From: Erwinia aphidicola
GTDB taxonomy: Bacteria; Pseudomonadota; Gammaproteobacteria; Enterobacterales; Enterobacteriaceae
Direction of reading: 5' to 3'
Length of the DNA stretch: 64,000 bases
NCBI RefSeq assembly: GCF_024169515.1
Contig: NZ_JAMKCQ010000001.1
Location: forward strand, 3,658,001 to 3,722,000
Of the stretch, positions 21,720 to 44,932 are shown piece by piece. Below the pieces are notes generated by a model. It saw nothing but the letters and a program-made list of their open reading frames with translations, made no database searches and had not been told where the DNA came from. The position numbers were made by a program, and so were the translations under genes. The first letter of the stretch is position 1; every line of letters begins with the position of its first letter.

Positions 21720-22919
21720 ATGGCACAAGTAATCAATACCAACAGCCTCTCGCTGATCACTCAGAACAACATCAACAAAAACCAGAATGCTCTGTCTACC
21801 TCTATCGAGCGCCTGTCTTCTGGCCTGCGTATCAACAGCGCGAAAGATGACGCTGCGGGCCAGGCGATTGCTAACCGCTTCACCTCTAACATCAAGGGCC
21901 TGACTCAGGCTGCGCGTAACGCTAACGACGGTATCTCTGTTGCACAGACTACTGAAGGCGCACTGTCAGAAATCAACAACAACTTACAGCGCGTTCGTGA
22001 ACTGACCGTTCAGGCTTCTACCGGTACTAACTCATCTTCAGACCTGTCTTCCATCCAGGACGAAATCAAATCCCGCCTGTCTGAAATTGACCGCGTATCG
22101 GGTCAGACTCAGTTCAACGGCGTGAACGTTCTGGCTAAAGACGGCAAAATGTCTATCCAGGTTGGCGCCAACGATGGCGAAACTATCGATATCGACCTGA
22201 AGAAAATCGACTCTAAGACTCTGGGTCTGGACAGCTTCAACGTGAACGGTCCTAAAGGTGCAATGACAGAAATGTCAGGAACTGCAGCCTTTAAAGCTTA
22301 CTTCGGTGAGACCACTCAGGTGTCAGGTGCAACTGTTTCTGAGAAATCTGCTGGTGACCTCGCTACTCGTCTGGGTGTTGCTTCAGGAAGTGTTTCTGTT
22401 GAAGGTGCTAAGATCTATAAAGATGAAAATGGCAACGTATTTGCAAAAGTTACTGTAACCGCATCTGGTGCTGCTGAAGTTAACAATCTGAAGAATAATG
22501 GTATCGAAAGCACCAGCGGTACTCCTCAGTCCTTCTACATTGCACTTGATCCGCAGGCGGCAGATGTCACTACACCGACAACAGCCAAATTTACAATCGA
22601 TACCTCTAATTTTGACCCATCATCACTGACTAAGGGTTCTTCCACTAACCCGTTGGCCAAACTGGATGAAGCGATTGCATCTGTGGATAAATTCCGTTCA
22701 TCTCTGGGTGCCATTCAGAACCGTCTGGGTTCTGCGGTAACCAACCTGAACAACACTACCACTAACCTGTCTGAAGCACAGTCCCGCATTCAGGATGCTG
22801 ACTACGCGGTTGAAGTATCAAACCTGTCTAAAGCGCAGATTGTACAGCAGGCGGGTAACTCTGTGTTGGCTAAATCTAATCAGGTTCCACAGCAGGTTCT
22901 CTCTCTGCTGCAGGGCTAA
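21720..22919 (+). CDS. fliC: Flagellin FliC
   Basis: A 399-residue flagellin, shorter than the E. coli K-12 protein. Conserved D0/D1 termini are complete: AQVINTNSLSLITQNNINKN and LSSGLRINSAKDDAAGQAIANRF at the N-end, AIQNRLGSAVTNLNNTTTNL and SVLAKSNQVPQQVLSLLQG at the C-end. The central domain (about 175-305) is variable, reduced and rich in Ser/Thr, offering acceptor sites for the glycosylation operon downstream. The TLR5-type segment LQRVRELTVQA is present. AGGA precedes ATG 21720. Confidence 0.97.
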   Translation: MAQVINTNSLSLITQNNINKNQNALSTSIERLSSGLRINSAKDDAAGQAIANRFTSNIKGLTQAARNANDGISVAQTTEGALSEINNNLQRVRELTVQASTGTNSSSDLSSIQDEIKSRLSEIDRVSGQTQFNGVNVLAKDGKMSIQVGANDGETIDIDLKKIDSKTLGLDSFNVNGPKGAMTEMSGTAAFKAYFGETTQVSGATVSEKSAGDLATRLGVASGSVSVEGAKIYKDENGNVFAKVTVTASGAAEVNNLKNNGIESTSGTPQSFYIALDPQAADVTTPTTAKFTIDTSNFDPSSLTKGSSTNPLAKLDEAIASVDKFRSSLGAIQNRLGSAVTNLNNTTTNLSEAQSRIQDADYAVEVSNLSKAQIVQQAGNSVLAKSNQVPQQVLSLLQG

Positions 22920-22942
22920 TAACCTAATAAGACTAAATATTG

Positions 22943-22968
22943 ACCCCGCCTTTGCGGGGTTTTTTTTC
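22943..22968 (+). terminator. fliC terminator
   Basis: The stem ACCCCGC/GCGGGGT (22943-22960) with a 4-base loop is followed by eight Ts, a strong rho-independent terminator. It should separate fliC from the glycosylation operon. Confidence 0.93.
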
Positions 22969-23491
22969 ATCTATATGATTTATAGCTTGTAATTACACTT
23001 AGCCCTTTAACTCCCACAGGCACAATCCAGTCTGACTCTGCAAGATATCTTTATTTAAAGTTATCTGCTAATTGTCTGACCTTTTTACATTGATGATATT
23101 GACAAATTGACAATTTCAAATCTCTAGAATTTTCACTGAAAAATTTTCAACATATTGTAATTATTGGTTTTATACTAATCCAATTAGCATTGCTGGTTAG
23201 GAAAGTTACTGACTCTGCTGGGTATGAATGTGCGATCTCCACTCTTCAAATGATTCCCTCCCTAAAAACGTATCTTATTGTTTTATCTCATGAAAAATAC
23301 TATATTTAGGCATCACAGTCGATCAGATAACAAATTTTTGAAAGTATAAAACTACTTTCAGAGTGGCTAAAGTGACATTTGTAGTCGACTAATGAGGGTA
23401 ATTAAACCCAAATTGAGGCCTTAATCAACCCATTGTGTGACTGATAGGATCGTAAAATCTTAGTATTATTGATCTATTGGTGAAATCGTCC
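22969..23491. other. AT-rich intergenic region before the glycosylation operon
   Basis: These 520 bases hold no gene I accept. The composition drops sharply in GC right after the fliC terminator, marking the left edge of the foreign segment. A 7-bp inverted repeat GAAAGTA/TACTTTC lies at 23339-23358. I looked for TAAA-N15-GCCGATAA and found no good sigma-28 site, so the operon promoter is probably of another class. Confidence 0.55.
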
Positions 23492-24253
23492 ATGGCGAAA
23501 GGTGAGAGAGTTTGGAAACGTTCAGTTGAAATTGATTATCAGTCAACACAGGCGTTTTTTGATGCGCGTGGGAATGGAAAATATGAAAATCCATTAAGTG
23601 CAACAATGTATCAAGATCACGAGCCTGAACTCGTGGCTAAAAGGGACTTAGCAGAGAGAAAGGTAGTGACTTCATTACTTCCTCTGCATCAGGTTAAAAA
23701 AGTCTTCGACATGGGATGCGGTATCGGAAGATGGGCTGGATTTTTTTGTAACACGCCACATGCTGCAAGCTATCTGGGGATTGATTTTTCATCGTCACTT
23801 ATTCAGCAGGCACAGCGCCTTGCAGTTGAAAAAGACTGGAAAAATGCAAAATTTCAGATTATGTCTGTAACAGAAGTAAATAATGCAGAGCTTTCGTTAT
23901 CTCCACCTTACGACTTCATAATGATTTCTGGCGTCCTCATATATCTTAATGATACTGACTGCTTAAAAGTGTTAAAAACAGCATTGAGCCTTTGTGCCCC
24001 AAATGGAATCATCTATCTTAGAGAACCTTTGGCTAAAGAGACAAGATTAACATTGCAGGATGTATATTCAGAGGAATTAAAAAACACTTATTCAGCAATA
24101 TATCGAACAGAAACCGAGATGGCTGAACTTATCGAGAAAGTGTTTGATGAAAAAAAATTCATATCTCATGGTTGGCAAGAGCTTTTTATAGATGAATTAG
24201 AAAAAAGAAAAGAAACCCGGCAGTATTTTTCTATGTTAAAAAGGTGGGCATGA
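23492..24253 (+). CDS. SAM-dependent methyltransferase (flagellin glycan operon)
   Basis: A 253-residue class I methyltransferase. SAM-binding motif I is VFDMGCGIGRWAGFF (about residue 70), the acidic strand-2 motif is SYLGIDFSSSLIQQA, and the post-I and motif II region is YDFIMISGVLIYL. The C-terminal part is helical. It is the first gene of a tightly packed four-gene operon, with one base between its stop and the next start. By context it would methylate a sugar or phosphate substituent of a flagellin glycan. The start may be ATG 23492 (GGTGA upstream) or the TTG/GTG 4-5 codons earlier. Confidence 0.8.
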   Translation: MAKGERVWKRSVEIDYQSTQAFFDARGNGKYENPLSATMYQDHEPELVAKRDLAERKVVTSLLPLHQVKKVFDMGCGIGRWAGFFCNTPHAASYLGIDFSSSLIQQAQRLAVEKDWKNAKFQIMSVTEVNNAELSLSPPYDFIMISGVLIYLNDTDCLKVLKTALSLCAPNGIIYLREPLAKETRLTLQDVYSEELKNTYSAIYRTETEMAELIEKVFDEKKFISHGWQELFIDELEKRKETRQYFSMLKRWA

Positions 24254-24254
24254 A

Positions 24255-24860
24255 ATGAAAACAGCCTATTGCTTTGACCTTGATGGAACCTTAACTAGGC
24301 AAGAGTTATTGCCTTTGATTGCTGCATCTATTGGACTGGATGATGAAATATCAGTATTAACACAGGCTACCATTGCCGGAATTCTTCCTTTCGAAAAATC
24401 TTTTAAGTTGCGAGTGCGTCTTCTTAAAGAAGCTAAAATCGAATTAATCCATAGAATTCTGGAAACTGAGGTTGATTTTCGGCACAACATTCTTGAGTTT
24501 ATACAAAAAAACCGGAGCAATTGCTTCGTGGTGACCGGGAACCTTGACGTTTGGGTTAAACCTTTATTAAATAAATTAGGTGTTGAAAGCTTTACATCGT
24601 TAGCGTCATTGGATCAGGAAGGGCGTCTGAACGGAGTTAGTCATATTCTTAATAAATCAGATGCAGTCAAAAGCTTGAGGAAAAGATTTGACAGGATTGT
24701 AACGATCGGGGAAGGAATGAACGATGTACCCATGTTTGAAGTAGCTGACTGGCGGATTGCATTTGGGGCTACTCATGAACCTAACGGCACGTTATGTAAA
24801 CTAAGCGACTTTATTGTTTATGATGAGGGTTCCTTATGTCGTCTGTTAAAAATGCTGTAA
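24255..24860 (+). CDS. HAD-family phosphatase (flagellin glycan operon)
   Basis: A 201-residue haloacid dehalogenase-superfamily protein of the phosphoserine-phosphatase type. Motif I is FDLDGTLT (nucleophile Asp8, acid/base Asp10), motif II VVTGN, motif III Lys in LNKSDAVKSL, motif IV GEGMNDVPMF. A helical cap lies between motifs I and II. It would remove a phosphate from a small metabolite, by context an intermediate of the precursor used by the downstream nucleotidyltransferase. Its 3' end overlaps the next gene by 25 bases, so translation is coupled. Confidence 0.82.
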   Translation: MKTAYCFDLDGTLTRQELLPLIAASIGLDDEISVLTQATIAGILPFEKSFKLRVRLLKEAKIELIHRILETEVDFRHNILEFIQKNRSNCFVVTGNLDVWVKPLLNKLGVESFTSLASLDQEGRLNGVSHILNKSDAVKSLRKRFDRIVTIGEGMNDVPMFEVADWRIAFGATHEPNGTLCKLSDFIVYDEGSLCRLLKML

Positions 24861-25489
24861 TAAGTGCTGCAGGTATAGGTTCTCGCCTTGGATTGAACCT
24901 TCCGAAATGTTTGATTGAGATAGCAGGTAAGAGTCTACTTCAATACCATTTTGAAAGGCTAACTGATATTGAAAATGTCTGGCTTGTGGTTGGTTTCCAG
25001 GAAGAAGCTGTAATCAATGAAGCAAAAAAAATCCGCCCCGATTGCATTATTGTTCGTAACCCAGACTACATGAATACAAACACCTTGCAAAGTATATGGC
25101 GTGTTGCTCGTCATTTGAAAGATAAGTTTTTGATAATAGATGCAGATACTTTAATACAAAATGAAAGTTTTGAAGATTTCATTTCTAAAGCTAAAGACTC
25201 AAATCATCTCATCGGGGTATCATCTTGGACGACCCATGATGGAGTTCGGACTAATCTTGATAAAGAAGAGGGGCAGGTAATTTCTTTTACTCGTGAATTA
25301 ATTTCAGATTATGAATGGACGGGCATAGCTATTGTAAGTCCATTCATGATTATTAATGAGAAGAAATATGTTTATGAAGCTTTAGAAAATTTCCTTCCTA
25401 TTTCTTCTTTTAAAATTAATGCGTTTGATATCGATACCATTGAAGATCTTGATATGGCCAAGAAAGTTATGACATTAGGTTGGAAATAA
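24836..25489 (+). CDS. Nucleotidyltransferase, LicC-like (flagellin glycan operon)
   Basis: A 217-residue single-domain nucleotidyltransferase. The NTP-binding loop is AAGIGSRLGLNLPKCLIEIAGKSLL (G-x-G-x-R-x-G ... PK), with FLIIDADTL carrying the metal-binding Asp and INAFDIDTIEDLDMAKK at the end. The small size and the K-C-L-I-E-I-x-G pattern resemble CTP:phosphocholine or CTP:phosphosugar cytidylyltransferases such as LicC more than long sugar-1-P nucleotidylyltransferases. It starts inside the HAD gene and ends one base before the giant glycosyltransferase. By inference it makes the CDP-activated group used by that protein's TagF-like domain. Confidence 0.82.
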   Translation: MSSVKNAVISAAGIGSRLGLNLPKCLIEIAGKSLLQYHFERLTDIENVWLVVGFQEEAVINEAKKIRPDCIIVRNPDYMNTNTLQSIWRVARHLKDKFLIIDADTLIQNESFEDFISKAKDSNHLIGVSSWTTHDGVRTNLDKEEGQVISFTRELISDYEWTGIAIVSPFMIINEKKYVYEALENFLPISSFKINAFDIDTIEDLDMAKKVMTLGWK

Positions 25490-25490
25490 A

Positions 25491-28400
25491 ATGAAAAATT
25501 CTCATCATGAATTGAATGCAAAGCCGGATTTTGGTGTTGTGGATTTAACAGATATCCATGATTCGACGGCTAAAATAAATTTTGAAATGGCCAAAAAAAA
25601 AGATAAGATTGTTATATTTGGTTCAAATTATGGTGACGAGGTTATTGAAAGTGCCACTGAGTTCAAAAATGTTATGGTGCTTGATAGTCGTATTCCTTGC
25701 CTGAATCATGCCAAATTGAAAACCGATCTAAAAGGATTGAGAAATGTAGATTTTTTCAATCAACATTTCATGGACTTTCAAAGCTCTGAGGTATTTGATT
25801 GTATTTTGTTAGCTTCTTGTTTAAATGATTATCAGGATGAATTCTTTCACCTAAGAGGGTTGTTAAAAGCCGCTACACTATTGGCGCATGGTGGTGTATT
25901 AATGATTGTTGTTCCCGTTAAGGAACAGGAATTTTATATATCTTTAGCTCTGCGATTGGGATTTTCCCAATGTTCTAAGTTAGGCGAATACAATAATTTA
26001 AACACAAAAAACATTTGTCTCACTTTTAATCTAGATACTTTTTCCACATCAAAAGAAATTAATAGTACACTCAAGGTTGCTGGATTTGGCAGTATGCACT
26101 TTCATTTCCGCTCTCTTAAGCCATTGGTCAAATTATTTAAAAATCATTTAGTTACCCTTTCTAAAGAAGATGTGATTTCATGGCGCCCTGATGTTATTGT
26201 AGTGGCCGATGGTTGGTCAGTTGAATACTGGCGCGATTATTGTGATGCGAATAATGTTTTGCTGATAGGCATGCGTCACGGATCAGTTACTCGATATGGA
26301 TTTGCCGAAAGCCAATACAACTACGCAGATTATATGTGTGGAAGCCCATGGGATATTGAAGATACATTGTTATCAAAAGTTCAACCACGGAAGGGATTTT
26401 TAATTACTGGGAATTCATGGGTCGATGAAGTTTTCAAAATTGAAAAATCTATTCTGAACAAAAATAATCCCACTATTCTCTTTGCTCCAACCTATAATCC
26501 AGAAATAAGTTCTGCTGTTTACTTTGGTGAGCGTGTTGTTTCTCTAATACGCAGCGTATACCCCTCTTCGAAAATTATTATAAAACCTCACCCAGCAATT
26601 GTTGAGCATGAACATGGATTTGTGGTAGATAAAAATATTTTCCGTGAACTTATGTCAATATGGCGTCAACAAAGTATTGACGATCCCTTGGTAGAATTGA
26701 TTGATAATCCTGAAGCTAGCATTGCTGAAAGTTTTGCACAAGCAGATATTCTCTTGGCTGATGCTTCCTCCTTGATTTATGAGTTTATGGTGCTAGATAG
26801 ACCTATTATCCTTTATTCTACAGAGAAGAAAGTTGAACACTGGGAGTATAACCCAGACGCGCCAGGCAATGCATGGCGTGATATAGGATTAGAATTTAAT
26901 GAAGATCAACAGTGTGTTGAATATTTGCGCAATGCATTCTCACTTCACGATAAGTACTGTCGAGTTGCACAATATGCACGTACTCAGTTTCTTCATGGGA
27001 TTTACCAAGACGGTGAATCAACCAATCGTGTAGCTAATGCGATAATAAATCAATCCAAACTTGAAATACTAGTTTATGGGGATTCAACCACTTGGGAAGA
27101 AAGGGTTGCTATAGCTGAAAAATTGTGTCAGACATTCGCGTTTAGTCGTATTTCTATTTTGAATGATGTTGCCTTTAATATTGAGAATTTTTCAACTTAT
27201 TGTGACTGGAAAAAATGGTCTCTTTCCTTGAATCCCTCTTGTTCTAGGCATCAAGATGTTTTATTGGTGAATGCCGATCATGGACTAATACCTTCCAGCG
27301 CCCATCAGGTCACAAAGGGGCGTCGGGATCTGGCTCGGAATGAACTCCATAGCCTCGTTATCAGATCAAAAGGAAGTTGTGCTTTAGCGCTAATATCATC
27401 TGCAAACCTGACATCTTTCATTGCTTGCTCGTTACATGAAGAGGATGAGCGAGAAAAAGATTGGCCAAAAGAAGAGCTAAATATTACACTTGGGAAAGGG
27501 ATAGTACGTAACCCTGGAAAATCACTTTTTTTTGTAAGTGATGTAGCGGAATTAGAAGTAAATTCCGCAATAACTGGTGTAAAACCCAAAAAAAATCACA
27601 TCCAATTACATATTAGTCTTCTTGAAAAAAGTAAGTATAATAAATTCCCCCTGAAAACTAAAATCTTTGTAAATGGTGAACTATTAAAAGAGGTTACGTT
27701 TGATGGTGTCAATGACCAAATCCTGACCATTCCATTTATTGTAGGGTTAGACAATAGGTCGGTAATTAAATTAGTAAGTGATGCCAGGGCTGAAGGCATG
27801 TTAGGTGTTATTGATAATATTTCCTTCATCATGCGAACATCATACATAGACATCGATTCTGTTATTAAAATAGACAATGGTATCAGTGCGTGGTTGAATA
27901 AAAGAAAATTGAATGCTGCTCAGGAGGAATTCGTAAAAAAATATAGAGAAAGCATGTCGATCGTAACCACTAATGTTTTATGTCTTGTTATAAACAATGG
28001 GCATGAGCGAAAGTTACAAAATACACTAAATAACCTCAATGACATCAACGGTTCAGGTGTAAATATTAACCTTTCTCCTGTCGTTATAAATAGTATCATT
28101 GAACCCATTAATGGATCAGTTTATGAGCATTGTGCATCAGGTCTTAGTGAACTGACGCTTAATCTTAATCAAGAGATTTCTTCCAGTACCTGTGACTGGT
28201 TTATCCTGCTTAAAGCGGGGGAAACCTTTACGCAAAGTGGTTCAATCGTAGCAAGTCTACAATTACCATTGGCCAAAAATTGTGCTGCTATTTATACCGA
28301 TTCATTATTCGAAAGTGATGATGGAATAAGTAGCGTCGTACTCCACCCTGACTTTAATCTCGATTTGATTTTGAGCTTACCTTCTGTCATGACGGAAAAC

Positions 28401-30542
28401 TGGATTTTCAATCGTGAAACATTCATTCAGCTTGGTGGTTTCAGTTCAGATTACCCTCGTGCAACAGAATTTGAGTACATAACACGAATCATAGAAGAGA
28501 GAGGTATTGGTGTTATTGGTCATTTAAATGAACCTGCAATCCTCAGGGAACCTTTCAAATTAAGCTATGTTGAAGATCAAAAACTTGTTATTGAAAAGCA
28601 TCTTAGAAATAGGGGTTATGTAAACGCCGAAGTTACTTCGGAAATTATAGGCGTATGGCGGTTAAAATATAATGTTGATTATGAACCACTTGTTTCAATA
28701 ATCATACCTACTAAAGATCAACTTCCATTGTTAGTAGCTTGTGTTACTACTATTTTGGAAAAGTCATCGTATCATAATTACGAAATTCTGATTGTTGATA
28801 ATAACAGCGAGCTGAATGAAACAAAAACATGGTTAGATGGTATAGCACAGGTTGACCCAGAAAGGATTCGCGTTATTTCTTACCCTTATCCTTTTAATTA
28901 TTCAGCAATGAACAATATGGCTGCACGCGAAGCTAAAGGGGAATACCTGGTTCTGTTGAATAATGATACGGCTATCATTCAAAATGAGTGGTTGAACAAT
29001 ATGCTTAACCATGCATTACGTCCAGAAGTGGGGATAGTGGGTGCCAAACTTTACTACCCCAACAGTTGTATTCAACACGCTGGAGTGGTCCTTGGGTTGC
29101 GTGGGCCTGCAGACCATCCATTTATTGGAAAAAATAATGATGATCGCGGTTATCTTTACAGGTTAGTTGCCGATCAAAACTATACCGCTGTCACTGCTGC
29201 CTGTTTGATGGTGCGTAAAGAGGTATATGATGCTGTAGGCGGTCTGGATGAAGAAAACTTCAAAGTTTCTTACAATGATATCGATTTCTGTCTTAAAGTA
29301 CGTGAAGCGGGCTACATGACTGTGTGGACACCTTATGCCAAAGTGATGCATGAAGGGAGTGTCAGTCAAAGCAAAATAGATTTAACAAAACAGCATGAAA
29401 AGATTATACGTTTCCAGAACGAACAGGATGCAATGTATAAAAAATGGTCGCCACTTATTGCTAACGATCCTGCTTATAATTCCAGCCTGACTAAAAATGG
29501 AGAAGGCTTCGAGCTAATTGAAAACAGTACGTTAACTTGGCAGCCAGTTTTTTGGAAACCAGCACCAAACGTTCTCGCCCATATGGCAGATGAAAATGGA
29601 TGCGGAAATTATCGTATTATAAAACCATTTGAAGCAATGCAGCATTCTGGTTTGATTCAGGGTACGCTTTCAAATTTACTTCTTAGTTACCCTCAACTAA
29701 TGCAGTTAGAAACTGATAGTATTGTTTTTCAGCGAGAGATTTCACCTGAGTTTCATGAATGGATACGTAGGGCGTCAAAATTCTTATCGGTATTCAAAGT
29801 TTATGAATTGGATGATTATTTGCCAAATGTGCCGATTAAAAATATGCATCGTGCGCATATGCCAAAGGATATTTTGAAGTCTTTAAGAAAGAGTTTATCA
29901 TTAGTTGATAGATTTGTTGTTTCTACGGCAGCTTTAGCCAACCGTTTTGATGGTCTACACAATGATATTCAAATTTCTGAAAATCGTTTACCTGTGAAAG
30001 AGTGGGGTAACTTAATCAGTCTTCGTGGACAAGGAAGAAAGCCGAGAGTAGGTTGGGCTGGTGGGTCAAGCCATACTGGAGATTTGGAAATGATTTACGA
30101 TGTTATTCGTGCGTTAAGCGATCGGGTAGAATGGGTTTTCATGGGGATGTGCCCGCCTAAACTCCGTCCTTACTTATACGAATATCACCACGGTGTTGAC
30201 TTCGCAAGCTATCCAGAGAAATTGGCAAGTCTTAACCTCGATCTAGCTCTTGCCCCGGTTGAAGACAATGAATTTAACCGATGCAAAAGTAATTTACGGC
30301 TTTTGGAATATGGTGCTTGCGGCTATCCGGTCATTTGCAGTGATGTTGAGTGCTATCGGAATGACTTACCAGTCACTCGCGTCAAAAATCGTTACAAGGA
30401 TTGGATCGAAGCTATTGAAATGCATCTTGCTGATCCAAGCACGTCTCTGAAAACAGGTGATGCCTTAAGAAAAGTTGTGCTTGAACATTGGATGTTAAAA
30501 GGCGAGCCTTTGAAGCGCTGGAGTGAACTTTGGTTGCCATAA
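25491..30542 (+). CDS. Giant multi-domain flagellin glycosyltransferase
   Basis: A 1683-residue protein with no signal or membrane segments, so it acts in the cytoplasm. Domains by residue: 35-185 Rossmann-like, possibly a degenerate methyltransferase; 200-520 similar to the CDP-glycerol glycerophosphotransferase (TagF/TarF) catalytic fold, with ITGNSWVDEVF near 303, IIIKPHPAI near 363 and ADILLADASSLIYEFM near 420; 690-785 a beta-rich module; 860-1050 a degenerate GT2-like unit (WFILLKAGETF); 1065-1330 a full GT2 (SIIIPTKDQLPLLVACV, LVLLNNDTAI, GGLDEENFKVSYNDIDFCLK); 1365-1683 a GT4/GT-B-like end (RPRVGWAGGSSHTGD-like segment, NLDLALAPVEDNEFNRCKSNLRLLEYGACGYPVICS). It resembles FgtA-type flagellin glycosyltransferases of Pseudomonas. 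AT-rich codon use contrasts with the flagellar genes around it. Confidence 0.85.
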   Translation: MKNSHHELNAKPDFGVVDLTDIHDSTAKINFEMAKKKDKIVIFGSNYGDEVIESATEFKNVMVLDSRIPCLNHAKLKTDLKGLRNVDFFNQHFMDFQSSEVFDCILLASCLNDYQDEFFHLRGLLKAATLLAHGGVLMIVVPVKEQEFYISLALRLGFSQCSKLGEYNNLNTKNICLTFNLDTFSTSKEINSTLKVAGFGSMHFHFRSLKPLVKLFKNHLVTLSKEDVISWRPDVIVVADGWSVEYWRDYCDANNVLLIGMRHGSVTRYGFAESQYNYADYMCGSPWDIEDTLLSKVQPRKGFLITGNSWVDEVFKIEKSILNKNNPTILFAPTYNPEISSAVYFGERVVSLIRSVYPSSKIIIKPHPAIVEHEHGFVVDKNIFRELMSIWRQQSIDDPLVELIDNPEASIAESFAQADILLADASSLIYEFMVLDRPIILYSTEKKVEHWEYNPDAPGNAWRDIGLEFNEDQQCVEYLRNAFSLHDKYCRVAQYARTQFLHGIYQDGESTNRVANAIINQSKLEILVYGDSTTWEERVAIAEKLCQTFAFSRISILNDVAFNIENFSTYCDWKKWSLSLNPSCSRHQDVLLVNADHGLIPSSAHQVTKGRRDLARNELHSLVIRSKGSCALALISSANLTSFIACSLHEEDEREKDWPKEELNITLGKGIVRNPGKSLFFVSDVAELEVNSAITGVKPKKNHIQLHISLLEKSKYNKFPLKTKIFVNGELLKEVTFDGVNDQILTIPFIVGLDNRSVIKLVSDARAEGMLGVIDNISFIMRTSYIDIDSVIKIDNGISAWLNKRKLNAAQEEFVKKYRESMSIVTTNVLCLVINNGHERKLQNTLNNLNDINGSGVNINLSPVVINSIIEPINGSVYEHCASGLSELTLNLNQEISSSTCDWFILLKAGETFTQSGSIVASLQLPLAKNCAAIYTDSLFESDDGISSVVLHPDFNLDLILSLPSVMTENWIFNRETFIQLGGFSSDYPRATEFEYITRIIEERGIGVIGHLNEPAILREPFKLSYVEDQKLVIEKHLRNRGYVNAEVTSEIIGVWRLKYNVDYEPLVSIIIPTKDQLPLLVACVTTILEKSSYHNYEILIVDNNSELNETKTWLDGIAQVDPERIRVISYPYPFNYSAMNNMAAREAKGEYLVLLNNDTAIIQNEWLNNMLNHALRPEVGIVGAKLYYPNSCIQHAGVVLGLRGPADHPFIGKNNDDRGYLYRLVADQNYTAVTAACLMVRKEVYDAVGGLDEENFKVSYNDIDFCLKVREAGYMTVWTPYAKVMHEGSVSQSKIDLTKQHEKIIRFQNEQDAMYKKWSPLIANDPAYNSSLTKNGEGFELIENSTLTWQPVFWKPAPNVLAHMADENGCGNYRIIKPFEAMQHSGLIQGTLSNLLLSYPQLMQLETDSIVFQREISPEFHEWIRRASKFLSVFKVYELDDYLPNVPIKNMHRAHMPKDILKSLRKSLSLVDRFVVSTAALANRFDGLHNDIQISENRLPVKEWGNLISLRGQGRKPRVGWAGGSSHTGDLEMIYDVIRALSDRVEWVFMGMCPPKLRPYLYEYHHGVDFASYPEKLASLNLDLALAPVEDNEFNRCKSNLRLLEYGACGYPVICSDVECYRNDLPVTRVKNRYKDWIEAIEMHLADPSTSLKTGDALRKVVLEHWMLKGEPLKRWSELWLP

Positions 30543-30566
30543 TTTTTTAATATTAATCAATTTCTA

Positions 30567-30590
30567 AACGCTCCTGTTCGCAGGAGCGTT
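30567..30590 (+). terminator. Terminator of the glycosylation operon
   Basis: A perfect 10-bp stem AACGCTCCTG/CAGGAGCGTT closes the stable tetraloop TTCG. It lies 24 bases after the giant gene. No long T-run follows. Confidence 0.75.
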
Positions 30591-31293
30591 ATGCATTAAG
30601 AATGCTCTAGAAAATATCATTCTAATTGGATTTCTATATTCTGGTGAATTTTATAGGGTGTTTTTGGTGATTAATTAACACTACCGATAATCATTGGAAT
30701 TATATTTATTGATTTATTTTAATGCGAGTTTGGTGTTTTGATAACCAATGCTGAGCGTTTCCTAAGGATTCTTTAAGCTCCGAGGGCGTGGTGACTATTT
30801 TAATGAAAAATTTGATTTTAGCATTTTTTTAGATTTGTGAAGCGAGCTTGTTAGAATTCCACTTTGGAAGTAATCTCTTTAAGTAATTATCAGAAATATC
30901 CGGTGCTTTATCACAAGTACATCTAACTTTTTATCTTACTTTGTTGAAACTGTTGCATGGTCACGGTTAATCAATGGTAAGGTCTATAGCGTAAAGAACC
31001 ATTGCACCCTAACATCATGCCCTTTGGTCGTCTGGTTTTAAAATATGAATAAAAACGATTTATCTTGTGATTTTAGGGAGAGGATTTACGTTAGCGTCCA
31101 TTTTGACATGGTTCCTGGTTCAGAAGAATGAAAGTCTTACAGTTCATCAAAGCATGGGCGTCTAATTTCTCTTTACCCTGCATCAAACGGGTACATTACA
31201 GAATTTTAACCTGCTGCCGATAACTACAACCAATGTCACTTTGCGAGTTGTCCTGTAGATGATTAACACGCATTAATTTCATGGGGTTCAACA
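30591..31293. other. AT-rich noncoding region
   Basis: About 700 bases without a credible ORF. Composition stays AT-rich to about 31.2 kb and then returns to genome level inside the HNH gene, so this is the right edge of the foreign segment. It contains the sigma-28-like promoter at 31197. I found no terminal repeats or integrase remnant to explain how the island entered. Confidence 0.5.
31197..31223 (+). promoter_or_regulatory. Sigma-28-like promoter of the HNH gene
   Basis: TACA (31197), 15 bases, GCCGATAA (31216-31223). The -10 is the full FliA consensus and the -35 has one change, the same variant seen before fliA at 32369. It lies 71 bases before the HNH start. Confidence 0.75.
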
Positions 31294-32262
31294 ATGCGCT
31301 TCAATTATGACTTGTTACCTGGGGAACTGCTGCCGTTTGAGGAGATAAACGACCGCTACAGCAAAAAGTACCCTGACGATAAATCGTTGACTACCCGGGG
31401 GTTGCTTAGCCCGTCGACCTCCAGCAAGAACTGGACTATCCGCGCGATATTCGCCAGCAAGGATAGCCATATTCCGCTGGAAGACCTGCTGTTTATCAGC
31501 AACGATAACGAACGCAAAAATTACCTGCAGCGCTTTGAACACTATTTGCAGCGCCAGGAGAGCTTCCTCTATTTTCGTCGTCCGCTGGAAGCCGCGCCGT
31601 GGAACAGCTGGAAGGTGATGGGTGAGAGCAGGGTGCTGGCAATGTTGGATCCGGCATCCATTATGGCGCAAAGCCTGCTGCAACAGCGTGGCTATACCTT
31701 AACCCTGCTGCGCAGTGATGAAGAGGATGAGTACTGGCAGCTGTACGACCGCCAGTCGCAGCCGTGCTTCGAATACTCGCGCCAGCTGCAGTTTATTGTG
31801 GTGCTGACCTCGCCGCTGCTGCCGCCGCCTGCCGGGGTGATCCAGGGGACGCAGGTCGGGCGCCGTGTAAAAGCCCGGCTGTGGCATCGTGCCAGTCATC
31901 ATGAGTTCAGCAATGCGGTACGCGCGCGCTACGGCGCCTGCGTCATCACCGGCACGCTGCTAACCGACGAGCAGGCGTGGCCGTGGGTGGAAGCCTGCCA
32001 CATCGATACGCGGGAAAATGAGCAGGGCTTCCTGCTGGATAACAGCGCGGATAACGGCCTGTTTCTGCGCAGCGACCTGCAACGACTGTTTGCCAGTAAA
32101 CGGCTGTCGATTGACCCGTTGAGTGGTTCGGTGCATTTTCGCCGCACGTTACAGGAAGATAACACCCTGCTGCCGTTTTATCAGCAGCTGGAAGGGAAAG
32201 TCTGCGCCCTGTGGTCACAGGTGCCGGAGAGCACGCGCCAGCGTTTATCACTGAAAGCCTGA
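31294..32262 (+). CDS. HNH endonuclease-domain protein
   Basis: A 322-residue protein. The last ~110 residues form an HNH nuclease of the HNH_2 type: FSNAVRARYGACVITGT, then EACHIDTRENEQG (first His), DNSADNGLFLRSDLQRLFASKRLSID (Asn and the loop). The N-terminal ~190 residues are a separate domain I do not recognise, perhaps for recognition. No methyltransferase partner is adjacent. It sits between the glycosylation operon and fliA with a sigma-28-like promoter 71 bases upstream, so it may be expressed with late flagellar genes. GC-rich codon use fits the core genome. ATG 31294. Confidence 0.8.
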   Translation: MRFNYDLLPGELLPFEEINDRYSKKYPDDKSLTTRGLLSPSTSSKNWTIRAIFASKDSHIPLEDLLFISNDNERKNYLQRFEHYLQRQESFLYFRRPLEAAPWNSWKVMGESRVLAMLDPASIMAQSLLQQRGYTLTLLRSDEEDEYWQLYDRQSQPCFEYSRQLQFIVVLTSPLLPPPAGVIQGTQVGRRVKARLWHRASHHEFSNAVRARYGACVITGTLLTDEQAWPWVEACHIDTRENEQGFLLDNSADNGLFLRSDLQRLFASKRLSIDPLSGSVHFRRTLQEDNTLLPFYQQLEGKVCALWSQVPESTRQRLSLKA

Positions 32263-32420: not shown

Positions 32421-33143
32421 GTGAACGATCTATATACCGCCGATGGCGTGATGGACAAACATTCGCTGTGGCAGCGATACATACCGCTGGTTCGCCATGA
32501 AGCGTTGCGCCTGCAGGTCCGTCTGCCGGCCAGCGTGGAGCTGGACGATCTGCTTCAGGCTGGGGGTATCGGGCTGCTGAATGCCGTAGAGCGCTACGAC
32601 GCCCTTCAGGGCACCGCATTTACCACCTACGCCGTTCAACGCATTCGTGGCGCGATGCTCGACGAATTACGCAGCCGCGACTGGGCACCACGCAGCGTGC
32701 GCCGCAATGCGCGCGAAGTGGCGGGTGCCATGCATCGGGTTGAACAGGCGCTGGGGCGCACGGCATCCGAGCAGGAAGTGGCTGCGCAGCTTGATGTGTC
32801 GCTGGAGGAGTACCGGCAGATCCTGCTGGATACCAATAACAGCCAGCTGTTCTCTTACGACGAATATCGTGAGGAACACGGTGACAGCGCCGAGCTGGTG
32901 ACGGATGGCCACGAAGAGGCTAATCCGCTGCACCAGCTAATGGAAGGGAATCTGCGCGAACGCGTCATTGAAGCGATCGAAGCGTTACCCGATCGCGAAA
33001 AAATGGTGCTGACGCTCTATTACCAGGAAGAACTGAATTTGAAAGAGATTGGCGCCGTGCTGGAAGTGGGGGAATCCCGCGTCAGCCAGCTGCACAGTCA
33101 GGCGATCAAACGCCTGCGCGCCCGGTTATCGGGAGCGCGCTGA
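32421..33143 (+). CDS. fliA: Flagellar sigma factor sigma-28
   Basis: A 240-residue sigma factor for late flagellar and chemotaxis genes, held in check by FlgM. Region 2 is LPASVELDDLLQAGGIGLLNAVERYD and TAFTTYAVQRIRGAMLDELR, region 3 follows, and region 4 is YYQEELNLKEIGAVLEVGESRVSQLHSQAIKRLR. It starts with GTG, as in E. coli. It is followed by fliZ 43 bases later. It should act on the promoters at 21484, 21615, 31197 and 32369. Confidence 0.97.
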   Translation: MNDLYTADGVMDKHSLWQRYIPLVRHEALRLQVRLPASVELDDLLQAGGIGLLNAVERYDALQGTAFTTYAVQRIRGAMLDELRSRDWAPRSVRRNAREVAGAMHRVEQALGRTASEQEVAAQLDVSLEEYRQILLDTNNSQLFSYDEYREEHGDSAELVTDGHEEANPLHQLMEGNLRERVIEAIEALPDREKMVLTLYYQEELNLKEIGAVLEVGESRVSQLHSQAIKRLRARLSGAR

Positions 33144-39949: not shown

Positions 39950-40705
39950 TCAGGTATGCAGGAAACTGATTACGCTCTCGTTAAATTTCTGAGGGCAGGC
40001 GATGTTGGACAGATGCGCCGCGGGTAGCACCCCCAGCTGAGCCCTGGGGATATTTTGATGCAGCCATTGGGCCTCGGCCAGCGGGGTAATGGTGTCAAAT
40101 TCTCCGGCGATAACCAGCAGCGGCAGGTTAATCCGCCCGGCTTCAGCATGCAGGTCAGCCTGAGCCAGCACATCGCAGCACGCGGCATAGCCGACGGCAC
40201 TGGCGTGTGACAGCTGCATCACCAGCCGGCTGACTTGCGGATGGGCATGGCGGATATATTCTGGGGTAAACCAGCGAGCGGAAGAGCCGGCAGCCACCGC
40301 TGACAGGCCCTGTTCGCGTACCTGGCGCGCCCGCTGCAGCCAGGCCTCCTCACTGCCAATACGCGCGGCCGTATTGGCCACCACCATTTTTCGGAAACGC
40401 GCAGGGTAATGACGCGCCAGCCATAATCCGCTTAATCCCCCCATTGAGATACCGCAGTAGCAGGCATTTTCCACGTCGAGATGATCGAGCAGGGCGATAA
40501 CGTCGCGCCCGAGGATCTCCAGATTCAGCTCACAGGCGGGCAGCGGTGTGCTGCCGTGCCCGCGTGGGTTATAGCGCAGCACGTTAAAGTCACGGGTGAG
40601 GGCCGCCATTTGCGGCTGCCACATATCCCAGGTGGTGCCTAATGAGTTGGCCAGCACCAGCACCGGAGCTTCTTTCGGGCCATCCAGGCGATATTCAATA
40701 TTCAT
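39950..40705 (-). CDS. pcaD: 3-oxoadipate enol-lactonase
   Basis: A 251-residue alpha/beta hydrolase. The nucleophile elbow is GISMGG (Ser near 100), the acid Asp lies in AGEFDTITP and the catalytic His in PAAHLSNI; the oxyanion-hole segment is VLANSLGTTWDMW. It hydrolyses beta-ketoadipate enol-lactone to beta-ketoadipate. AGGAG precedes ATG 40703-40705. It is the last gene of pcaIJFD and its start codon overlaps the C-terminal codons of pcaF. Confidence 0.93.
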   Translation of the reverse strand: MNIEYRLDGPKEAPVLVLANSLGTTWDMWQPQMAALTRDFNVLRYNPRGHGSTPLPACELNLEILGRDVIALLDHLDVENACYCGISMGGLSGLWLARHYPARFRKMVVANTAARIGSEEAWLQRARQVREQGLSAVAAGSSARWFTPEYIRHAHPQVSRLVMQLSHASAVGYAACCDVLAQADLHAEAGRINLPLLVIAGEFDTITPLAEAQWLHQNIPRAQLGVLPAAHLSNIACPQKFNESVISFLHT

Positions 40706-40706
40706 C

Positions 40707-41909
40707 TCAACTCCTTTCAATAATCAGCGCAATGCCCTGGCCAACGCCAATGCACATTGCGCAAAGTCCAAAGCGTGCGCCGCTTTTTTGTAGTTGCCAG
40801 GCGGCATTCATCACCAGCCGGGCGCCGGATGCGCCCAGCGGGTGGCCGAGGGCGATGGCTCCGCCGTTTGGATTGACGTGCGCAGCGTCATCAGGCAAGC
40901 CAAGGTCGCGCATCACCGCCAGCACCTGGGCGGCAAAGGCTTCATTCAGTTCGATCACATCCATCTGCTCCAGCTTCAGTTTTGCCTGGCTCAGGACCTT
41001 GCGAATGGCTGCGGCTGGGCCAAAGCCCATCAGCGCGGGTTCAATGCCGCTCACCGCGCTGGAAACAATCCGCGCCAGCGGCTGCAGCTGATGCTGCAGC
41101 GCGGCGCGCTCGCTGGCCAGCAGCAGGGCGCAGGCGCCGTCATTCAGACCCGAAGCATTTCCGGCGGTGATGCTGCCCTGCGGATGTACCACCGGTTTGA
41201 GCCTTGCCAGCATTTCCAGCGTGGTGTGACGCGGATGCTCATCGCGCACCATGTGCAGGGCAGCCCCTTTGCGCTGAGGAATGGTCACGTCCATCAGCTG
41301 CGGTTGATAAAATCCGCTCTCCTGAGCGTCGACCGTGCGCTGCTGGCTACGCAGGGCGTAAGCATCCTGATCGGCGCGGCTAATAGTAAACTTCAGCGCG
41401 ACATTTTCTGCCGTTTGCGGCATTGATTCGACACCGTAAAGGGCGTCCATTTGCGGATTAATCAAGCGCCAGCCCATGGTCGTGTCCTCCAGCTTCATAC
41501 TGCGGCTGAAGGGGTGCTCTGCTTTGCCCATCACAAAAGGAGCGCGTGACATGCTTTCCACCCCGCCCGCGATCGCCAGTGAGGCTTCGCCGCTTTTGAT
41601 CGCCCGCGCGGCTATAGCGACCGCATCAAGACTGGACCCGCATAAGCGGTTAATGGTGCAGCCGGGCACAGAAGCGGGTAGCCCGGCCAGCAGCAGCGCC
41701 ATGCGTGCGACATTGCGGTTATCTTCCCCGGCCTGATTCGCACAGCCGTAAAGCACATCATCCAGCGCCTGCCAGTCCAGACGCGGGTAACGCTCGAACA
41801 GGGCTTTCAGCGGCAGGGCAGCAAGATCGTCGGTGCGAACCGTTGCCAGGCTGCCGTTGAGCTTGCCGAACGGGGTACGAACGGCATCACACAGCCATGC
41901 ACTATTCAT
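40707..41909 (-). CDS. pcaF: 3-oxoadipyl-CoA thiolase
   Basis: A 400-residue thiolase that splits beta-ketoadipyl-CoA into succinyl-CoA and acetyl-CoA. The acyl-accepting Cys is in INRLCGSSLDAV, with the C-terminal NPNGGAIALGHPLGASGARL and catalytic CAMCIGVGQGIA. ATG 41907-41909 has GAGGAA upstream and lies inside the last codons of pcaJ. Similarity to PaaJ-type thiolases is expected; context decides for PcaF. Confidence 0.93.
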   Translation of the reverse strand: MNSAWLCDAVRTPFGKLNGSLATVRTDDLAALPLKALFERYPRLDWQALDDVLYGCANQAGEDNRNVARMALLLAGLPASVPGCTINRLCGSSLDAVAIAARAIKSGEASLAIAGGVESMSRAPFVMGKAEHPFSRSMKLEDTTMGWRLINPQMDALYGVESMPQTAENVALKFTISRADQDAYALRSQQRTVDAQESGFYQPQLMDVTIPQRKGAALHMVRDEHPRHTTLEMLARLKPVVHPQGSITAGNASGLNDGACALLLASERAALQHQLQPLARIVSSAVSGIEPALMGFGPAAAIRKVLSQAKLKLEQMDVIELNEAFAAQVLAVMRDLGLPDDAAHVNPNGGAIALGHPLGASGARLVMNAAWQLQKSGARFGLCAMCIGVGQGIALIIERS

Positions 41910-42564
41910 CAGTTCCTCCTGGGGCAAACGTCAGCGCCACCGGGGTAATTGCCTGCAGCTGCTGCGGGGTGATATCGGTTAATATCTCCCGCACCCTCAG
42001 TCCCTGCGGGCTGACATCCATAACGGCCAGATCGCTGTAAATCCGGCTGATGCAGCCAATGCCGGTCAGCGGATAGCTGCACTGCGCCACGATCTTGCAC
42101 TGCCCTTTTTTCGTCAGATGTTCAGTCATTACAAACACCTGACGCGCCCCGCTGGCCAGATCCATCGCGCCGCCGACCGCCGGAATCGCGCCGGGTTTAC
42201 CGGTGCTCCAGTTGGCCAGATCGCCATATTGCGACACCTGGTAAGCGCCAAGCACGCAAATGTCGAGGTGCCCCCCGCGCATCATGGCAAACGAATCCCC
42301 GTGATGAAAATAACAGCCGCCTGGCAGCAGCGTGACGGGCTGCTTACCCGCGTTGATCAGCTCTGGGTCCTCATTGCCACTGGCAGGTGCCGGGCCCATG
42401 CCAAGGATGCCGTTCTCGCTGTGCAGGAAAATATCTTTATTGGCGGGAAGATAGTTGGCGATTTGCGTTGGCAGGCCGATGCCAAGATTGACGTAGGCTC
42501 CGTCCGGGATATCGCGGGCGATGCGCTGCGCCAGCTGGTTATGCGTGAGGCGGATGAGTTGCAT
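41902..42564 (-). CDS. pcaJ: 3-oxoadipate CoA-transferase subunit B
   Basis: A 220-residue CoA-transferase beta subunit. The catalytic Glu is in FLHSENGILGMGP, after GAYVNLGIGLPTQIANYLP. With PcaI it moves CoA from succinyl-CoA to beta-ketoadipate. AGGAG before ATG 42562-42564. It begins four bases after pcaI ends. Confidence 0.94.
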   Translation of the reverse strand: MQLIRLTHNQLAQRIARDIPDGAYVNLGIGLPTQIANYLPANKDIFLHSENGILGMGPAPASGNEDPELINAGKQPVTLLPGGCYFHHGDSFAMMRGGHLDICVLGAYQVSQYGDLANWSTGKPGAIPAVGGAMDLASGARQVFVMTEHLTKKGQCKIVAQCSYPLTGIGCISRIYSDLAVMDVSPQGLRVREILTDITPQQLQAITPVALTFAPGGTDE

Positions 42565-42568
42565 TGTG

Positions 42569-43264
42569 TCACGCTCCTGAGGCGATCGTTGCGGGGCTGA
42601 GATTGGCTGAACAGACCACGCGCTGCACAAAAATACCGGGAGTCACCACCGCCTCCGGGTCCAGCGTGCCCAGCGCGACGTGGCGGGAGACTTCAGCGAT
42701 GGTGCAGCGGGCAGCCATCGCCATAATCGGGTTGAAGTTGCGTGCCGCTTTGCGATAGACCAGGTTACCCCAGCGATCACCGCACTGTGCTTTGATCAGG
42801 GCAAAGTCTGCCTTCAGCGCCAGTTCCAGCACGTACTGCCGCCCCTCAATTTCGCGCGTCTCTTTGCCCGCAGCCAGCTCAGTACCGAAACCCGTTGGGG
42901 TAAAAATGGCCCCCAGCCCGCTGCCACCCGCCTGAATACGCGCCACAAGATTGCCCTGCGGCACCAGCTCCAGCTCAATCTCTCCGCGGCGGTAGAGGTC
43001 GTCAAATACCCATGAGTCACTCTGGCGCGGAAAGGAACAGATCATCTTGCGCACGCACCCCGCTTTGAGCAGTAGCGCCAGACCCGAATCAGCGTTGCCA
43101 GCGTTGTTGCTGACCAGCGTGAGGTTCTGCGGCCGCCGCCGAATCAGTGCGTCCAGCAGCGCATAGGGCTGTCCTGCCGGGCCAAATCCGCCAATCATCA
43201 GCGTGGCACCATCGTGAATGTCAGCCACGGCTTCATCGGCCAAAAACAGACTTTTGTCGATCAT
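42569..43264 (-). CDS. pcaI: 3-oxoadipate CoA-transferase subunit A
   Basis: A 231-residue CoA-transferase alpha subunit with the CoA-binding GGFGPAGQPYALLDALI motif near the start and the TLVSNNAGNADSGLALLL segment. GGAGGAGCG precedes ATG 43262-43264. It is the first gene of the minus-strand pca operon, divergent from catB across 208 bases that must hold both promoters. Confidence 0.94.
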   Translation of the reverse strand: MIDKSLFLADEAVADIHDGATLMIGGFGPAGQPYALLDALIRRRPQNLTLVSNNAGNADSGLALLLKAGCVRKMICSFPRQSDSWVFDDLYRRGEIELELVPQGNLVARIQAGGSGLGAIFTPTGFGTELAAGKETREIEGRQYVLELALKADFALIKAQCGDRWGNLVYRKAARNFNPIMAMAARCTIAEVSRHVALGTLDPEAVVTPGIFVQRVVCSANLSPATIASGA

Positions 43265-43472
43265 CTCGCTCCTCCTGAGTTGAGTCATCAGGGTGCTGAC
43301 TTCACCGGTGAAAAAATAACCTAAAAGTGTCATTGGCACTAAAAGACGGTTTTATCGCAAGTTATGTGAGCTGGGGCGAACAGGTGCGATCTGCGCATCC
43401 TGATACCGTGGGTCAATCATTTTCAGCAGGATTTGGCTATCCCCGATCGGCAGGGTTCTATAGCGTAAAGCG
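43265..43472. promoter_or_regulatory. Divergent cat/pca control region
   Basis: The 208 bases between pcaI and catB must carry both promoters. An inverted repeat AGTG-TCATTGG-CACT lies at 43327-43341. No catR or pcaR regulator gene is adjacent on either side, so the regulator is encoded elsewhere. A LysR-type CatR site would be expected here, but I cannot point to a convincing one. Confidence 0.5.
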
Positions 43473-44582: not shown

Positions 44583-44599
44583 CAGGAGGACATATCACC

Positions 44600-44890
44600 A
44601 TGCTGTTTCACGTAACCATGGATGTGAATTTGCCGCAGACGATGGCGGAAAATGTCGCCAGCGAACTTAAGGCACGGGAAAAAGCTTACTCTCAGGCGCT
44701 TCAGCGTTGCGGCAAGTGGCGACATATCTGGCGCATTGCCGGGCACTACTCCAACGTCAGCGTATTTGACGTCGACAGCGTTGAGGAGTTGCACAAGCTG
44801 CTGAGTGAGCTGCCGCTTTACCCCTTTATGACGATGCAGATAGTGCCACTGTGCCGCCACCCTTCAGCGGTCCGCGTGGATGACCGTTAA
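44600..44890 (+). CDS. catC: Muconolactone delta-isomerase
   Basis: A 96-residue decamer-forming isomerase, full length for the family, starting LFHVTMDVNLP with RIAGHYSNVSVFDVDSVEELH and LPLYPFMTMQIVPLCRHPS. It makes beta-ketoadipate enol-lactone, the substrate of the adjacent PcaD. AGGAGG precedes it and it follows catB by 17 bases. Confidence 0.96.
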   Translation: MLFHVTMDVNLPQTMAENVASELKAREKAYSQALQRCGKWRHIWRIAGHYSNVSVFDVDSVEELHKLLSELPLYPFMTMQIVPLCRHPSAVRVDDR

Positions 44891-44932
44891 AACTTTTCTC
44901 TGCCTGAGCTGTACCTGAAATGGAGCATCAAT

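Follow-up and report, generated by a model that had tools for sequence, protein, structure and literature searches.

A four-gene operon between fliC and fliA of Erwinia aphidicola is very probably a counterpart of the Pseudomonas aeruginosa b-type flagellin modification system

The flagellin modification of P. aeruginosa PAO1, published in 2025, consists of a deoxyhexose, a phosphodiester and N,N-dimethylthreonine; the proposed donor is CDP-(dimethyl)threonine, and each gene was disrupted and the effect shown (PMC11833859). Flagellin of the pa1088 mutant bears only the deoxyhexose. An earlier pa1089 mutant is inconsistent in that it kept some full glycan, and proteomics was unable to confirm that the mutants lacked the proteins (PMC11833859). 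An (N-methylated) phosphothreonine group is reported for both PAO1 and Clostridioides difficile (PMC11833859, PMC10714395). The CDP-threonine model is set out in PMC10714395, and that step is still hypothetical. The C. difficile Type A locus (CD0240-CD0244), compared here from the papers' description and not from the sequences, similarly encodes a sugar transferase, a PSP-like HAD enzyme, a nucleotidyltransferase, a methyltransferase and a TagF-like phosphotransferase, but there the sugar transferase and phosphotransferase are separate proteins, the core is GlcNAc and the amino acid is N-monomethylthreonine (PMC10714395). In enterobacteria, flagellin islands of the glycosylation and the fliB methylation kind both occur within one genus; the passages of PMC4875605 considered here describe no phosphothreonine or TagF-like island, and its supplementary lists may contain one.

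Four open reading frames on the same strand lie between fliC and fliA in the stretch of 64,000 nucleotides analysed (the window). Their GC content is 37.8% (53.2% for the window), which bears out an earlier note on this DNA, made from the letters alone, that had described four AT-rich genes here. The operon adjoins the flagellin gene, with 572 bases from fliC to the methyltransferase gene, and the HAD and nucleotidyltransferase frames overlap by 25 nt. The methyltransferase is taken to start at the ATG at 23492; a TTG at 23477 is also possible. The insertion of glycosyltransferase genes between fliC and fliA, the low GC content and the nearby HNH gene are shared with the known enterobacterial islands (PMC4875605). 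Such an HNH gene beside Erwinia and Pantoea islands has been named edn1 (PMC4875605). The HNH gene of the window was rejected as an island component because its relatives occur in 12 of 19 flagellar stretches, mostly with quite different islands, and beside fliB in another genome of the same species. A terminator-like hairpin follows fliC; the whole scanned stretch holds five hairpins, a count not above that of shuffled sequences (mean 8.9). A search of the interval from fliC to the methyltransferase gene, allowing up to three mismatches, gave no FliA-type promoter. The hairpin, the degenerate methyltransferase-like N-terminal domain of the giant protein and its GT2a part are additions to the features listed in the earlier note.

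Table 1. Features of the locus (positions in the window; identities are to the P. aeruginosa protein)
Feature	Position	Strand	Evidence
fliC, flagellin, presumed acceptor	21720..22919	+	Flagellin_N/C (Pfam)
Terminator-like hairpin after fliC	22942..22961	+	8-pair stem, 6 G-C, then T-run
Class I SAM methyltransferase, PA1088-like	23492..24253	+	Methyltransf_23 7e-14 (Pfam); 47% identity
HAD-IB enzyme, PA1089-like	24255..24860	+	TIGR01488 98.1 bits (cut-off 45); 65% identity
Nucleotidyltransferase, PA1090-like	24836..25489	+	NTP_transf_3 9.3e-13 (Pfam); 57% identity
Giant fused transferase, PA1091-like, 1683 aa	25491..30542	+	ORF; 40% identity overall
 aa 1-190, methyltransferase-like, degenerate	25491..26060	+	aligned with intact-looking methyltransferase domains of other giants
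 aa 191-530, TagF-like CDP-phosphotransferase domain	26061..27080	+	PF04464, hhalign
 aa 531-850, divergent region, family unassigned	27081..28040	+	14-39% identity to ten other giants
 aa 851-1060 (GT2a), degenerate GT2-like	28041..28670	+	motif inspection
 aa 1061-1345 (GT2b), GT2	28671..29525	+	PF00535 74.9 bits at 1069-1248
 aa 1346-1683, GT-B/GT4-like	29526..30539	+	weak PF13524/PF13692, below cut-off; 55% identity
HNH gene	31294-32262		between the four ORFs and fliA
fliA	32421-33143		

Direct comparison with PA1088-PA1091, a parallel already drawn in the earlier note, was made with a P. aeruginosa sequence carrying B-type flagellin (NZ_CP131792.1, locus L032). The four genes are similar, stand in the same order beside the flagellin gene with the same 25-nt HAD/nucleotidyltransferase overlap, and each protein matches its counterpart over nearly the full length (47, 65, 57 and 40% identity in gene order). 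The giant is fused in both (1694 aa in P. aeruginosa), so the fusion enzyme is not special to this genome. The loci differ in placement (between flgL and fliC in P. aeruginosa), in GC content (67.5% there), in the GT2b motifs, which are lost in P. aeruginosa and kept in Erwinia, and in the centre of FliC. Counterpart status is judged from identity and shared gene order. Within the giant, the TagF-like domain is 64% identical to that of P. aeruginosa, GT-B 55%, GT2b 38%, and the N-terminal, middle and GT2a parts 17–22%. The parts that would handle phosphothreonine (HAD enzyme, TagF-like domain, nucleotidyltransferase and methyltransferase) are well conserved.

Among 11 distinct loci (the window, E. 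oleae, a third Erwinia, P. aeruginosa, five other named Pseudomonas, one record labelled 'Pantoea' and one MAG, whose giant is truncated by the contig end), the order methyltransferase, HAD, nucleotidyltransferase, giant is the same in all, always beside or near flagellar genes. With the frames as called, the HAD/nucleotidyltransferase overlap measures 25 nt in ten of the 11 and 28 nt in the remaining one (L058). The constant order and near-constant overlap argue against chance and confirm the four-gene island as real. The operon is rare: it was found in 3 of 37 Erwinia genomes, source genome included, and in a family sample of 392 genomes only in the source genome. Recent transfer from Pseudomonas is not supported, since the TagF-like domain is 73–78% identical to those of the other two Erwinia and 64–67% to the eight others, and since the three Erwinia operons have 38–48% GC. 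One scan of viral contigs found no relative that would point to phage carriage, and megablast gave no E. coli match to the giant gene. We doubt that 'Pantoea sp. Cy-639' represents a further enterobacterial genus, because its flagellar-region stretches are 79–80% identical in DNA to P. reidholzensis and have 60.7% GC; the glycosyltransferase genes of the two are 74–78% identical.

The Pfam matches agree with the earlier naming of the genes as methyltransferase, HAD enzyme, nucleotidyltransferase and a giant with TagF-like and GT2 domains. The HAD enzyme (Pfam E 7.6e-14) matches the phosphoserine phosphatase of M. jannaschii in a profile search (4.8e-22) and, more weakly, ThrH (5.3e-5). Phosphoserine-binding residues E20, F49 and R56 in the M. 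jannaschii phosphatase are aligned here with E17, F46 and R53 of the HAD enzyme. The nucleotidyltransferase profile, searched against solved structures, matches 6PD1 and LicC (1JYK, second-best, E 1.3e-8), in line with the LicC-like assignment of the earlier note; similarity to IspD is also seen. A cytidylyltransferase-type enzyme is supported, and we propose it to be a CTP:phospho-(N-methyl)threonine cytidylyltransferase.

The TagF-like domain is the best conserved part of the giant (64–78% identity to ten other giants), and its proposed identity is upheld by PF04464 (Glyphos_transf, residues 292–519, 48.6 bits against a gathering cut-off of 22.1) and by hhalign against seven other PF04464 proteins (96.7% probability, E 4e-10), both matches beginning only from about residue 292–298. 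The motifs PTYN, KPHP and ADASS fall on conserved PF04464 positions. The AlphaFold2 model of residues 1–560 (mean pLDDT 81.5, pTM 0.80) has alternating strands and helices over 191–530. A search of solved-structure sequences with the TagF-like alignment found no TagF; the best matches were CarB (E 0.006), probably by chance, and TarL (E 0.039). In residues 1–190 there is no Pfam methyltransferase match, and this domain, which retains a GCADG motif in six of seven other giants, is degenerate in Erwinia. GT2a gives no Pfam GT2 match. GT2b retains the motifs VDNNS, NNDT and NDID and is predicted to be an active sugar transferase; its NND motif is kept in all three Erwinia giants and lost in P. 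aeruginosa. In the C-terminal GT-B part, Pfam GT-B matches are present but below their cut-offs; the lysine of its CKSN motif is conserved in 33 of 36 tails, and this part is predicted to transfer the protein-linked sugar. The AlphaFold2 model of the tail is poor (pLDDT 56.8), and nothing was drawn from it.

We regard it as very probable that the operon corresponds in Erwinia to the b-type system of P. aeruginosa and places (N-methylated) phosphothreonine, via a CDP donor, on a FliC sugar. The HAD enzyme would produce phosphothreonine, the methyltransferase would N-methylate the threonine, and the nucleotidyltransferase would join the product to CMP to form CDP-(N-methylated) threonine. The GT-B part of the giant, and probably GT2b too, would place sugar on FliC, and the TagF-like domain would move phospho-(N-methylated) threonine from the donor onto this sugar as a phosphodiester. 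Similarity, gene order, domains and motifs are observed; each enzymatic step proposed for Erwinia, and how many sugars are added, is inferred. The earlier idea that a CDP-activated group is handed on to a sugar on flagellin is supported, that group being most likely (N-methylated) phosphothreonine. Two roles are revised: the HAD enzyme, taken for a mere phosphatase, is proposed to make phosphothreonine as a phosphoserine:threonine phosphotransferase (PMC10714395), and the methyltransferase, a proposed threonine N-methyltransferase, most likely acts early on the threonine amino group and does not cap the finished glycan, as the PAO1 pa1088 mutant has deoxyhexose alone (PMC11833859). Mono- and dimethylation cannot be told apart, since the methyltransferase is only 47% identical to that of P. 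aeruginosa. Matches to rmlC and rmlD above cut-off in the source genome fit a deoxyhexose core. The retained GT2b motif suggests that the Erwinia glycan may be longer than the single deoxyhexose of PAO1.

The same enzymology could serve a different CDP-activated group, either some other phospho-amino acid or amino alcohol (serine, choline, ethanolamine) or a polyol phosphate, given that the nucleotidyltransferase resembles LicC and IspD and that PF04464 is named for CDP-glycerol enzymes. We consider this unlikely, as all four proteins resemble a system with reported dimethylthreonine, the HAD enzyme and TagF-like domain at 64–65% identity, and a pathway for polyol or choline would not be expected to include a phosphoserine-phosphatase-like HAD enzyme. 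TagF-like, GT2 and GT-B enzymes also serve capsule and teichoic acid pathways, and the target might then be a surface polysaccharide or another protein; with all 11 loci beside or near flagellar genes, PAO1 counterparts that modify flagellin (PMC11833859) and fliB at the same spot in a genome of the same species, this is the least probable reading.

Decay of the operon to a relic, with flagellin modification lost, would agree with the degenerate N-terminal and GT2a parts, the negative search for a FliA-type promoter and the lack of the operon in the other genome of the species. It is nevertheless very unlikely: all four frames are open, motifs are conserved in the HAD enzyme, nucleotidyltransferase, methyltransferase, TagF-like, GT2b and GT-B parts, and the N-terminal part is even more lost in P. 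aeruginosa, where the system is active (PMC11833859).

We infer FliC to be the substrate from position and similarity only. The PAO1 glycosites Ser191 and Ser195 have no clear counterpart in the window FliC, whose centre is shorter. In the same-species genome (G147) the four genes are missing and their place is taken by fliB, which encodes flagellin lysine methylase; an HNH relative lies beside it and the flanks are 97–99% identical; the fliC centre has diverged between the two genomes (blastn and alignment). FliC of the fliB genome showed no surplus of lysines (central counts 10 and 9).

Tentatively, the giants may be modular flagellin-glycan synthases with a shared tail (GT2b and GT-B) and an exchangeable head (GT2 or methyltransferase-TagF), in which the number of live GT domains sets glycan length; within a species, the fliC centre could swap along with its modification module. 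On this view the one deoxyhexose of P. aeruginosa reflects GT-B as its sole evidently live domain, and the Erwinia giant, in which GT2b and GT-B are both live, would attach two or more sugars ahead of phospho-methylthreonine. A tree of the tails did not support a single clade of giant tails: the tail of a head-less Fgt (L036) is placed together with the Erwinia giants (99/98), and three label changes are required on the tree; it omits L058, whose tail is cut, and contains some long branches and four giants of odd amino-acid make-up. The pattern of head GT2 against GT2b (Fisher p 0.023) ignores relatedness and carries little weight.

The chemistry of such an island is already known from PAO1, and the best reading of the Erwinia operon is as a member of that system. 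This would extend phosphothreonine-type flagellin modification to Erwinia; our literature search turned up no reports beyond those on P. aeruginosa and C. difficile. The conserved Erwinia homologues could be used for testing the hypothetical CDP-threonine step, and comparison of Erwinia with PAO1 bears on whether one live glycosyltransferase domain equals one sugar. With fliB as the alternative occupant of this site, a single species offers a natural contrast of two flagellin modifications in a near-identical background.

The fliC–fliA interval of the window holds all four operon genes on one strand, and the GC content of the operon is 37.8% as compared with 53.2% for the window. Between the giant transferase gene (the giant) and the HNH gene are about 750 AT-rich bases (30543–31293) without an ORF of 80 amino acids, which may be an island remnant. 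Elsewhere in the window, positions 39950–45853 hold a cluster whose translations resemble those of a beta-ketoadipate/catechol pathway (hydrolase, thiolase, CoA-transferase subunits, muconate cycloisomerase-like and catechol dioxygenase-like).

Genes of the operon and their positions in the window
Gene	Position	Strand
Class I methyltransferase	23492-24253	same strand as other operon genes
HAD-IB enzyme	24255-24860	same strand as other operon genes
Nucleotidyltransferase	24836-25489	same strand as other operon genes
Giant transferase, 1683 aa	25491-30542	same strand as other operon genes

With a four-row profile, the best solved structure for the HAD protein is M. jannaschii phosphoserine phosphatase (4.8e-22); ThrH (1RKU) is also matched (5.3e-5). 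In a C. difficile study, CD0241 and PA1089 are likened to the same two enzymes (PMC10714395). The nucleotidyltransferase, described in the earlier note as LicC-like, does match LicC among solved structures (1.3e-8), together with PDB 6PD1 (1.4e-9). The TagF-like domain that the note had placed in the giant was recovered at residues 191–530, with PF04464 above cut-off at 292–519. Of 13 PF04464 proteins from other Enterobacterales genomes, 7 were aligned, and comparison with these by hhalign gave 96.7% for a four-row domain alignment and 96.2% for a nine-row alignment of the head (the N-terminal methyltransferase–TagF-like part). When solved structures were searched with a simple profile of this domain, no convincing hit appeared (CarB 0.006, TarL 0.039). 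The AlphaFold2 model of giant residues 1–560 is of good quality, with a pLDDT of 81.5 and a pTM of 0.80.

A protein search located the four-gene set, in identical order, in the flgL–fliC interval of P. aeruginosa NZ_CP131792.1 (B-type flagellin), with proteins of 253, 200, 220 and 1694 aa (methyltransferase, HAD enzyme, nucleotidyltransferase and giant). The record's locus tags differ; the assignment of these genes as PA1088–PA1091 rests on order and on function as given in the papers. The resemblance to this locus proposed earlier holds at the protein level, with identities to the window of 47% (methyltransferase), 65% (HAD enzyme), 57% (nucleotidyltransferase) and 40% (giant overall), whereas the location differs, the window operon lying on the fliA side of fliC. 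NZ_CP131792.1 (846,886 bases) is filed as a conjugative plasmid and holds flg and fliC genes. Such flagellar genes are as a rule chromosomal; the record may reflect a faulty assembly or the fusion of a chromosomal segment with a plasmid.

Eight more loci came from a pattern-based scan of GTDB species genomes for the TagF-like domain, which will not have caught every locus: E. oleae (strain DAPP-PG531), five named Pseudomonas, one Pantoea-labelled record and one MAG. With the window, P. aeruginosa and a third Erwinia (G019), this makes 11 distinct loci; the gene order is the same in all 11, and all adjoin or are near flagellar genes. The giant of L058 is incomplete, being cut by a contig end. 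In G019 (L035:5229-17329), the operon is located between fliC and fliD, not between fliC and fliA, and a separate Fgt-type glycosyltransferase is found on the opposite side of fliC. The record labelled 'Pantoea sp. Cy-639' (L055, NZ_VWXI01000002.1; GC 60.7%) has 79–80% DNA identity to P. reidholzensis across flagellar-region stretches and looks like a Pseudomonas.

The published chemistry is as follows. The PAO1 glycan is a single deoxyhexose to which N,N-dimethylthreonine is attached through a phosphodiester. Mutation of pa1088, pa1089 or pa1090 leaves just the deoxyhexose, and the pa1091 mutant has flagellin without glycan, although an earlier pa1089 mutant gave a mixed product (PMC11833859). 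The related C. difficile Type A glycan contains N-methylthreonine, and a phosphothreonine and CDP-threonine model was put forward, with CDP-threonine a hypothesis (PMC10714395). In the literature searched, which is chiefly open-access, reports on dimethylthreonine and flagellin concern P. aeruginosa and C. difficile. No report of a phosphothreonine-type system in enterobacteria was found there, and none of the paper titles retrieved describes Erwinia flagellin glycosylation with a phosphodiester. A 2016 survey of enterobacterial flagellin islands covers where they insert, their low GC, the edn1 HNH gene and fliB as an alternative; its main text, in the part covered, describes no phosphothreonine island (PMC4875605).

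In an alignment of 11 giants with the window as reference, the ten others are 64–78% identical in the TagF-like domain, 16–28% in the N-terminal part and 14–39% in region 531–850. The N-terminal methyltransferase domain is degenerate in all three Erwinia giants. Six of the seven giants from neither Erwinia nor P. aeruginosa have GCADG (L056 has GCADP), and the P. aeruginosa giant lacks this stretch. Pfam matches a methyltransferase here in four of five scanned giants, including L056 and not P. aeruginosa; the window giant gave no such match. The NND motif of the second GT2 domain (GT2b) is kept in 7 of 11 giants (three Erwinia, L057, L058, L059 and L060) and lost in P. aeruginosa, L054, L055 and L056. 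In the last three, a giant-tail-like glycosyltransferase is encoded separately upstream; the lysine of the C-terminal GT-B domain is lost as well in L054 and L055. The P. aeruginosa giant keeps GT-B, and no extra tail-like gene was found within the stretch examined. This pattern of motif loss and extra genes suggests, short of proof, that GT-B would add the protein-linked deoxyhexose and Erwinia GT2b a further sugar. In another system, P. syringae Fgt1, rhamnose transfer to a serine has been reported (PMC3927599).

The tail (GT2b and GT-B) also occurs with other heads. Among 147 genomes searched, 17 others have a strong tail match (E about 1e-190 or better) in a protein without the TagF-like head, 1153–1267 aa long in all 17 stretches. 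Pfam finds GT2 in 12 of 20 such heads and no family at E 0.001 in 8; of further heads, L036 and L054_790 have GT2 and L035_5229 does not (L043_10383, L055_408 and L056_3589 are outside the scan). NND is kept in 14 of 36 tails, the GT-B lysine in 33. Among the non-giants scanned, a GT2 head accompanies degenerate GT2b in 12 of 15 versus 2 of 8 with intact GT2b (Fisher p 0.023, relatedness ignored). The tail tree places the L036 tail, from an Fgt without the giant's head, as the sister group of the Erwinia giants with support of 99/98; thus either heads and tails have recombined or heads were lost. In another Erwinia (G030, L047:14348-19837), five successive flagellin-like genes (308–331 aa) adjoin two giant-tail-type glycosyltransferases.

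Of 37 Erwinia genomes, 3 carry the operon-type TagF-like domain, among them that of the window. The window's genome is the only one of 392 in the family sample (E up to 1e-30) and the only strong match among 369 in the class sample, where 19 others show weak partial matches (best 7e-11). The domain is absent from G147, the sole other E. aphidicola genome seen (completeness 100, contamination 10). Here a single 401-aa gene, FliB (NCBIfam 261 bits, cut-off 85), lies between fliC and the HNH gene (L101:15142-16347, against window 22263-31290). Flanking pieces are 97.4–99.1% identical; the match ends inside fliC at 22262, followed by two fliC pieces at 79% and 89%, and picks up at 31291, three bases 5' of the HNH start. 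Differences between the two FliC proteins are almost all central, and their central lysine counts (9 and 10) show no difference. This single genome pair suggests that the fliC centre and the modification module may move as one unit.

Matches to rmlC and rmlD above cut-off, near 4.70–4.71 Mb of the same chromosome, make a dTDP-rhamnose supply plausible. FliA-type sites precede fliC (two mismatches) and fliD (one mismatch), with two weaker ones (three mismatches), one upstream of the HNH gene, the other inside the giant on the minus strand; the site scan gave none upstream of the operon, and sigma-70-like matches were at chance level.

The window operon is genuine, looks intact and belongs to a known flagellin modification system. 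It places this system in a host group for which no earlier report was found, and the domain difference predicts a glycan different from that of P. aeruginosa.
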